Below, piece after piece: positions 34,449 through 57,964 of a DNA stretch of 64,000 bases. The stretch comes from Thiogranum longum (GTDB taxonomy: Bacteria > Pseudomonadota > Gammaproteobacteria > DSM-19610). The notes beneath the pieces are model-generated. The model had not been told where the DNA came from. It searched no databases and worked only from the letters and a program-made list of their open reading frames with translations. The stretch is taken from positions 2,646,573 through 2,710,572 of the forward strand of contig NZ_SMFX01000001.1 in assembly GCF_004339085.1 (NCBI RefSeq). Reading direction: 5' to 3'. A program made the translations under genes and the position numbers. Numbering within the stretch: the first letter of the stretch is position 1; every line of letters starts with the position of its first letter.

Positions 34449-34524
34449 AACTGACTCTGTCATTCTGAAAGCGTTGGCTGTCATGCCGCCCGAAAACATC
34501 CGGAACGACGGCTGAATATCCGTC

Positions 34525-34712
34525 GCCCCTCTGTCCGGTAACCTGAGAGTGTGAGCGACCATTTGGCCGCCTTCCCCTTCGGTGGGCCGATATGGCCGCT
34601 CTCCAGAGTCAATCCGGCTGAATAATGCCTGCTGCCGCGGTCCTTTTGCCTGAGCGATTCCGGGCGGGTTGCGCCTTCGGCGGCCGGCTGGGCCGGCTCT
34701 CTCCCGCAGCAG
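34525..34712 (-). promoter_or_regulatory. tandem glycine riboswitch
   Basis: Two glycine aptamers read on the minus strand. The first (34712-34627) has a P1 stem GCTGCTGC/GCAGCAG, the GGGAGAG start, CCGAAGGCGCAA and CTCAGGCAAAAGGACC. The second (about 34611-34525) has CTGGAGAG, CCACCGAAGGGGAA, CTCTCAGGTTACCGGACAG. These are the conserved cores of the gcvT-type riboswitch, which turns the operon on when glycine is bound. Below it a 6-bp hairpin (CGACGG/CCGTCG, 34505-34524) may be part of the expression platform. Confidence 0.93.
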
Positions 34713-34729
34713 CGCGAGATCGAAGGCGG

Positions 34730-42301: not shown

Positions 42302-42482
42302 GCATCTTCTGCGGTACACGTTAGCGGCTAAGATCTCCTTGAGCCTAATAATTGTCCAGGGGATCGGCTTGCCGGGCCAGTGAGCATGTCCACTGCGGTG
42401 GAAAGCCTTAGGTTCTGCACTCATCCCCACCTGAACCTCTGGTTCAAGGGCAATAGCTGCAACGGTATTCGCGGAAGATGCC
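42302..42482 (+). ncRNA. ssrS: 6S RNA
   Basis: About 181 nt. The ends pair (GCATCTTCTGCGG at the 5' side with GCGGAAGATGCC at the 3' side). The internal landmarks of gammaproteobacterial 6S RNA are present: CTTGAGCC, GTGAGCATGTCC, GTGGAAAGCCTTAGGTTCTGC, and the CACCTGAACC/GGTTCAAGGG arm. 6S RNA holds sigma70 RNA polymerase in stationary phase by mimicking an open promoter. Its place between zapA and fau is conserved. Confidence 0.95.
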
Positions 42483-56971: not shown

Positions 56972-57400
56972 CTAGATTTCCAGCGCTTTGGGCTGCTGGG
57001 CAGCGTGCTGATGTTCAGCGCCTGCGAAGATTTTCAGTTTACGGTACATGGCGCGTCCCAGCGGGTTCCTGGGCAGCATGCCCTTGACCGCCAGTTCCAG
57101 CACCCGGCCAGGGGCCTTGGCCTGCAGCTTTTCAAAGCTGATGGACTTCATGTTACCGATGTAACCGGTGTGATGGTGGTACATCTTGTCGGTCGCCTTG
57201 CGCCCGGTGACGCGGATCTTGTCCACGTTGACCACCACGATATAGTCGCCCGTATCCACGTGCGGCGTATATTCCGGTTTATGCTTGCCACGGAGGCGTC
57301 GTGCAATCTCGCTGGCGAGGCGTCCGAGGGTCTTGTCGGCGGCGTCGACGACATACCAGTCGCGCCGCACTTCATGCGCCTTGGCACTGAAGGTTTTCAT
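56972..57400 (-). CDS. rplM: 50S ribosomal protein L13
   Basis: A 142-residue ribosomal protein, the E. coli length: [20 protein letters not shown] at the start, [23 protein letters not shown] in the core and [19 protein letters not shown] in the C-terminal part. The ATG follows GGAG. A promoter of its own lies at 57445-57473. Confidence 0.97.
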
Positions 57401-57497: not shown

Positions 57498-57530
57498 ACA
57501 AAAAAAAGCGCAACGGGGGTCGTTGCGCCT
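57498..57530 (-). terminator. strong intrinsic terminator between the sRNA candidate and rplM
   Basis: Minus-strand stem GCGCAACG/CGTTGCGC with a 5-base loop and a run of seven T. It could end a transcript from the ferredoxin gene or, more likely, the short RNA candidate that starts near 57599. Confidence 0.9.
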
Positions 57531-57599
57531 AAAATACCACCAAAGGAGGATTGGAGGAGACTGATCAGGCATACGGTTGGGGGGTCGCCCGATCAGCTT
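57501..57599 (-). ncRNA. candidate small RNA with C-rich and UCCUCC loops
   Basis: No gene lies here, yet a promoter and a terminator enclose about 100 nt. The RNA would fold into three hairpins. The first is a 10-bp stem (57596-57587 with 57570-57561, CTGATCGGGC/GCCTGATCAG) with a loop holding ACCCCCC. The second is CCAA/TTGG (57554-57551 with 57543-57540), whose 7-base loop is TCCTCCT. The third is the terminator. A second TCCTCC overlaps the second stem. C-rich, single-stranded anti-Shine-Dalgarno motifs before a U-rich terminator are typical of trans-acting sRNAs. I know no named family with this sequence. Confidence 0.55.
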
Positions 57600-57605
57600 G
57601 TAAGT

Positions 57606-57634
57606 ATTTTCTAATATGCTTCTTTACTTGTCAA
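57606..57634 (-). promoter_or_regulatory. promoter of the small RNA candidate
   Basis: A perfect -35 TTGACA (57634-57629), 17 bp, and GAAAAT (57611-57606), which keeps the second A and last T of the -10 consensus. It points away from the ferredoxin stop at 57656. No coding start with a ribosome site follows. Confidence 0.55.
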
Positions 57635-57655: not shown

Positions 57656-57964
57656 CTAGATCTTCAACCGCTCGACCACCCGCCCGTTCACCAGGTGCTC
57701 ATCGATGATTTCATCGATGTCCGACTGGTCGATATAGCTGTACCAGACGCCCTCGGGGTAAACGACCAGCACTGGCCCTTCACTGCAACGGTCCAGGCAA
57801 CCGGCGCTATTGACCCGGATCTTGCCTTTCCCGGCAATTCCCAGTTCTTTACTGCGCTTTTTGGCGTAATCGCGCAGGGCCTGGGCATTGAAACGCTGGC
57901 AACAGGCCGAGCCGTCCTCACGGAGATTGGTACAGAAAAAGACATGACGTTTGTAATAGGACAT
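57656..57964 (-). CDS. thioredoxin-like (2Fe-2S) ferredoxin
   Basis: A 102-residue protein of the thioredoxin-like 2Fe-2S ferredoxin family. The cluster cysteines are C11, C21 or C22, C56 and C60 in HVFFCTN, GSACCQRF and NSAGCLDRC. The end (GPVLVVYPEGVWYSYID) is typical. Probably a soluble one-electron carrier; the partner is unknown. It is divergent from the glcF-like gene, another FeS protein, with a 78-bp gap. Confidence 0.88.
   Translation of the reverse strand: MSYYKRHVFFCTNLREDGSACCQRFNAQALRDYAKKRSKELGIAGKGKIRVNSAGCLDRCSEGPVLVVYPEGVWYSYIDQSDIDEIIDEHLVNGRVVERLKI

Follow-up and report, generated by a model that had tools for sequence, protein, structure and literature searches.

The fdx-rplM intergenic region

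The window analyzed here is a 64,000-nt stretch of the genome of Thiogranum longum, whose genus belongs to the sulfur-oxidizing gammaproteobacteria; the genome comprises 2.92 Mb in one contig. On its minus strand, a gene for a 2Fe-2S ferredoxin-like protein (fdx) is followed by rplM, and the space between them holds a predicted small RNA (sRNA) with a promoter and a terminator of its own. The features of the region, in the direction of transcription, are as follows:

57656-57964, minus strand: fdx, 2Fe-2S ferredoxin-like gene, the conserved upstream neighbor
57634-57606, minus strand: sRNA promoter, sigma-70-type, TTGACA-N17-GAAAAT (TTGACA at 57634-57629, GAAAAT at 57611-57606, 17-nt spacer), 10 of 12 consensus matches
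57601-57500, minus strand: sRNA transcript of about 100 nt, predicted from promoter, fold, homologues and T tract
57597-57560, minus strand: hairpin H1 at the 5' end, whose apical loop contains C6 at 57584-57579
57560-57537, minus strand: core, UCUCCUCCAAUCCUCCUUUGGUGG, consisting of the CUCCUCC linker and H2; near-invariant, the presumed target-pairing region
57557-57537, minus strand: hairpin H2 with the 7-nt loop UCCUCCU at 57550-57544
57530-57500, minus strand: intrinsic terminator, a GC-rich hairpin followed by U8, from the terminator scan and compensatory stem changes
57473-57445, minus strand: rplM promoter, TTGAAT-N17-TACTAT, read directly from the sequence
56972-57400, minus strand: rplM (L13; TIGR01066, 209.6 bits), the conserved downstream neighbor

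The product of fdx matches NF041612 over its full length at a score below the cut-off (74 of 150 bits). A sequence-only reading of this DNA had proposed the sRNA promoter, a terminator with no gene between the two, and a separate promoter for rplM. Our analysis recovered both promoters, that of the sRNA being conserved, and found no ORF of the annotated type between the end of fdx at 57656 and the start of rplM at 57400; the terminator was also recovered, with a tract of eight T (57507-57500) rather than the seven claimed. The start of the sRNA was placed 5-7 nt past the -10 box and its end at the T tract. Taken alone, the promoter scan (two found, 1.5 expected) and the terminator scan (four found, 4.0 expected) perform at chance level for this region, and the significance of the locus therefore comes from its folding z-score and its conservation rather than from these scans. 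Short ORFs that run through the sRNA, such as one of 66 amino acids from 57572, were rejected as coding sequences because their frames are not kept: the ATG lies in the variable apical part of H1, and the core carries 1-nt indels.

Two further RNA elements lie elsewhere in the window, namely a 6S RNA at 42303-42481 on the plus strand (RF00013, 91.2 bits) and tandem glycine riboswitch aptamers at 34521-34716 on the minus strand (RF00504, 66.1 and 52.5 bits).

Predicted fold of the RNA

The RNA from 57601 to 57503 has a folding energy of -39.7 kcal/mol as opposed to -21.7 +/- 3.1 kcal/mol in dinucleotide shuffles (z = -5.9), and none of 200 shuffles was as stable. As the sequence-only reading had described, the predicted fold consists of three hairpins: H1, H2 and the terminator. 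The base of H1 is formed by 10 bp, including one G.U pair, and is topped by a 16-nt apical region that contains the C6 run. Part of the CUCCUCC linker is paired within H2 in this fold. The terminator stem (57530-57506) has 10 pairs and is preceded by the U-rich segment UAUUUUA, a possible Hfq site that resembles those of sRNAs known to bind Hfq.

Conservation and genomic position

BLASTN located the element in 13 of the 17 listed genomes of the same genus (T. longum included) and in all three genomes of the same family, and its core in four other families. In the alignment, the promoter, core and terminator are conserved and the flanks are not; the core is kept in relatives as UCCUCCA(A)UCCUCCUUUGGUGG, together with the 5' hairpin, and the promoter is kept in the genus, the family and beyond as TTGACA ... 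aTATTAgaAAATaCTTA. Among 14 genus and family members, 12 consensus pairs of H1 are retained, and in several of these both partners have changed; the CCCC of its loop and the whole of H2 do not vary, and compensatory changes occur in the terminator stem. A further 19 members, more distantly related, keep the core and terminator, and H1 varies in sequence and length among them. Nevertheless, 110 different promoter-anchored 5' regions of relatives still fold with a mean z of -3.7, which argues that H1 is conserved as a structure.

The covariance model that we built (R1; its calibration was short, and its E-values are rough) matched 158 of the 369 genomes sampled from the class, from 118 of 271 genera, with a single match in T. 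longum itself. In homologues found by the model and not by the exact pattern, the H2 stems differ in sequence yet remain complementary (CCATC/GATGG, CCACC/GGTGG, TCATCC/GGATGA and ATTCTC/GAGAAT), CCUCC is present in the H2 loop of 77 of 99, and CUCC in the linker of 93 of 100. No parts of the sRNA are better conserved than this loop and the linker, which are its putative pairing segments. The proposal of a free-standing sRNA with anti-Shine-Dalgarno (anti-SD) motifs is strongly supported by this conservation.

A scan of named genomes for the exact core returned at least 118 contig stretches from sulfur-oxidizing and related gammaproteobacteria. The matches listed include Thiocapsa, Halochromatium, Thiohalocapsa, Thioalkalivibrio, Sedimenticola, Thiodiazotropha, Thiothrix, Thiomargarita, Leucothrix, Arenicella and Acidiferrobacteraceae, as well as two betaproteobacterial MAGs (Comamonadaceae and Gallionellaceae).

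The copies were sampled by sequence similarity, so that the fractions given here for their position describe these matches rather than all bacteria. With regard to the upstream side, the hairpins could be the 3' UTR and terminator of fdx, marking the end of read-through transcription and lacking any function in trans, and 50 of 100 aligned copies do have fdx upstream in the same orientation. However, a conserved promoter follows the fdx stop, the other half of the aligned copies have no detected fdx upstream, and the core is far more conserved than a terminator requires. We consider this explanation extremely unlikely.

On the downstream side, rplM lies on the same strand within 750 nt in 72 of the 100 aligned copies. 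Loci L047-L194 combine about 30 loci of the model search with the exact-core matches; in 72 of the 130 places there with enough flank, rplM was detected downstream, twice at a distance of more than 4 kb. Such linkage would be expected if the RNA were a leader or attenuator of the rplM-rpsI operon, in which transcription normally stops at the terminator and signal-dependent read-through feeds rplM. Against this, a separate promoter for rplM lies past the terminator and ahead of the gene, and a similar sequence is present in the alignment of several relatives; the distance from the sRNA to rplM ranges from about 140 nt to 4.6 kb in named contigs; no Rfam ribosomal-protein leader matches in the window; and what is conserved best is a set of anti-SD motifs and not a switchable anti-terminator. 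In addition, many copies lie elsewhere or form tandem arrays. One (L043, 6141-6200, plus strand) is located between tgt and queA, as named by eye, and carries the full conserved promoter, which indicates that the unit can move together with its promoter. A leader function is therefore unlikely.

Tandem arrays of two or three copies, about 100-150 nt apart, occur in some genomes (Thiotrichaceae and others). In Chromatiaceae (Thiocapsa, Halochromatium, Thiohalocapsa) the sRNA lies away from rplM and shares a promoter variant ending in TAAGAAACT. The corresponding loci are:

L133 5782-6024, plus strand: tandem sRNA copies
L221 978-1256, plus strand: tandem sRNA copies
L222 1028-1235, plus strand: tandem sRNA copies
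L219 1004-1193, minus strand: tandem sRNA copies
L081, L084, L086, L095, L102, L105, L144 and L152: Chromatiaceae copies with the TAAGAAACT promoter variant

Relation to known RNA families

At the gathering score, no Rfam family matches the sRNA locus. Below it, RF02278 (Betaproteobacteria toxic sRNA) aligns end to end (model positions 1-64 of 64) with the 3' two-thirds of the sRNA at 36.8 bits (E = 4.5e-6), the only match to this family in the T. longum genome, and the CU-rich 5' segment, the CU-loop hairpin and the terminator are all aligned. The NmsRb model (RF02877) aligns over its whole length (1-91 of 91), covering all three hairpins, at 24.7 bits (E = 0.063). The statement of the sequence-only reading that the RNA belongs to no recognizable family is contradicted by these two alignments, the second of which includes the 5' hairpin. 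By Rfam's own thresholds, the sRNA is a member of neither family: the gathering threshold of RF02278 is 50 bits and the best relative in the genus reaches 45.7, and that of RF02877 is 52 bits and relatives reach up to 30.3.

At E <= 1e-3, RF02278 matches 103 of the 369 genomes, largely at R1 sites; the matches exceed the cut-off in two genomes, both of one family, and fall below it in the other 101. The genome search with R1 likewise found one of the two sites above the cut-off, and both were matched when R1 was run on the stretches that contain them. Two further RF02278-like matches in relatives (L034 and L035) were rejected as copies of the sRNA since they have no CCUCC loop and resemble ordinary terminators. 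For NmsRb, a search of 56 relatives at E <= 0.1 gave four matches, all on the sRNA.

Among the members of RF02278 are the Burkholderia double-hairpin RNAs bdhR1/ncS03, ncS05, ncS27 and ncS62, whose predicted interactions lie mostly over RBSs; overexpression of one of these RNAs slows growth, and growth inhibition of E. coli on overexpression has been reported for Burkholderia members of the family (PMC5688073). The family is close to S17 of Bordetella (PMC11722255). Like our sRNA, its members have a CU-rich 5' segment, an H2 with a CU loop and a strong terminator, and the copies in betaproteobacterial MAGs share the core with the gammaproteobacterial copies. The T. longum sRNA differs in its added conserved 5' hairpin with a C-rich loop, its rplM locus and its single copy in the genome. 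In B. pertussis, S17 is Hfq-dependent and represses at RBSs, and 27 nt of it are conserved across betaproteobacteria (PMC11722255). S17 and S17S also resemble the sRNA in being short RNAs that end in a terminator and carry, in their 5' part, two single-stranded CU sites. However, S17 is cut by RNase E from a 190-nt precursor to 67 nt (PMC11722255), whereas the promoter described here is predicted to give the RNA of about 100 nt directly.

The Neisseria RNAs NmsRA and NmsRB (NgncR_162/163, RF02877; PMC5362039, PMC9973317) repress TCA-cycle mRNAs through two anti-SD motifs and are under stringent control (PMC5362039). They share with the sRNA the arrangement of three hairpins and two anti-SD segments, which is borne out by both fold and alignment. 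NmsRs are tandem siblings in Neisseria, whereas the sRNA is single in T. longum; the tandem copies of some gammaproteobacteria resemble the NmsR sibling pairs. By its description, Xanthomonas sX13 is similar in having three stems and C-rich loops that act on G-rich RBS motifs, but it lies at polA, has 4C/5C loops rather than UCCUCC and is Hfq-independent (PMC3771888). Membership of the sRNA in sX13 was rejected because its locus is fdx-rplM rather than polA and its motif differs.

The sRNA is likely the counterpart, in gammaproteobacteria, of the double-hairpin, S17 and NmsR sRNAs of betaproteobacteria. The CU-rich, low-complexity motifs of the sRNA and the betaproteobacterial families could instead have arisen by convergence; however, the shared layout, the spacing and the existence of intermediate sequences favor common descent.

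Proposed action and candidate targets

The anti-SD of 16S rRNA is CCUCCUU. The H2 loop with its flank reproduces this sequence, and the linker repeats CUCCUCC, so that the sRNA and the ribosome should compete for mRNAs with strong SDs. The explanation that best fits our observations, and which we hold with considerable confidence, is that of a free-standing, trans-acting sRNA that mimics the anti-SD and represses strong-SD mRNAs, probably together with Hfq. We infer that its own strong promoter would start the RNA and its own terminator would end it, fdx and rplM being merely neighbors. The CUCCUCC linker, the UCCUCCU loop of H2 and the C-rich loops of H1 and the terminator would offer accessible CU-rich segments for pairing with mRNAs that have unusually strong SDs of the GGAGGA type, and this pairing, probably assisted by Hfq, would block ribosome entry. 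The genome encodes hfq (102.8 bits), and proQ was not detected in it.

The C-rich loops, of which each molecule has several, could alternatively act as a decoy that titrates an RNA-binding protein, or even free mRNA/30S complexes, instead of targeting specific mRNAs, and the tandem multi-copy arrays of some genomes would suit such a role. However, what is conserved is the anti-SD rather than a site known to bind a protein, the GGA-rich, CsrA-like motifs lie on the opposite strand, and related RNAs act by pairing with mRNAs (PMC11722255, PMC5362039, PMC3771888). A decoy is thus very unlikely.

In the genome, 28 AGGAGGA sites have an ATG 3-11 nt after them, compared to 13 for the reversed pattern, and about half of the 28 look like real gene starts on inspection. 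Since the full 7-nt match before ATG is limited to these sites, the regulon may be modest. The genes concerned include soxX (TIGR04485, 101.3 bits) and those for a sigma-54 activator, a DsbA-like protein, a sulfotransferase and an outer-membrane protein, along with adenylate kinase and fliE, which were identified by eye only. The SD of soxX is as follows:

C1:621677-621691 of the T. longum genome, minus strand: AAGGAGGA, complementary to the sRNA loop region

GGAGGA is present upstream of soxX in all 12 orthologues of the genus, and AAGGAGGA in 11 of them. By this complementarity soxX is a candidate target; its SD is not evidence of regulation, since the needs of expression alone may preserve a strong SD. 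The sigma-54 activator (at 2645517, with an AGGAGGA SD), an idea taken from S17, is not supported as a conserved target because GGAGGA is kept only in the three closest genomes.

Discussion

RNAs of the anti-SD kind are already known. New in the present case is an sRNA that is unannotated, widespread and linked to rplM, and that has a conserved 5' hairpin in addition. In nearly all of the sampled gammaproteobacteria it escapes Rfam at the curated threshold, although the core is widely kept in the class. The sRNA probably connects bdhR, S17 and NmsR, betaproteobacterial RNAs that were named separately. More tentatively, and as a speculation that we would not favor over its opposite, the double-hairpin/S17 RNAs, NmsR and the sRNA might form one ancient clan of the beta- and gammaproteobacteria that descends from a single anti-SD-mimic gene, whose ancestral gammaproteobacterial site would be between fdx and rplM-rpsI and which in sulfur oxidizers might serve as a general brake on strong-SD mRNAs, those of sox included.

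The sRNA also permits a clean test of how selective an RNA that copies the anti-SD can be. With it, sulfur-oxidizing bacteria gain a candidate global post-transcriptional regulator.
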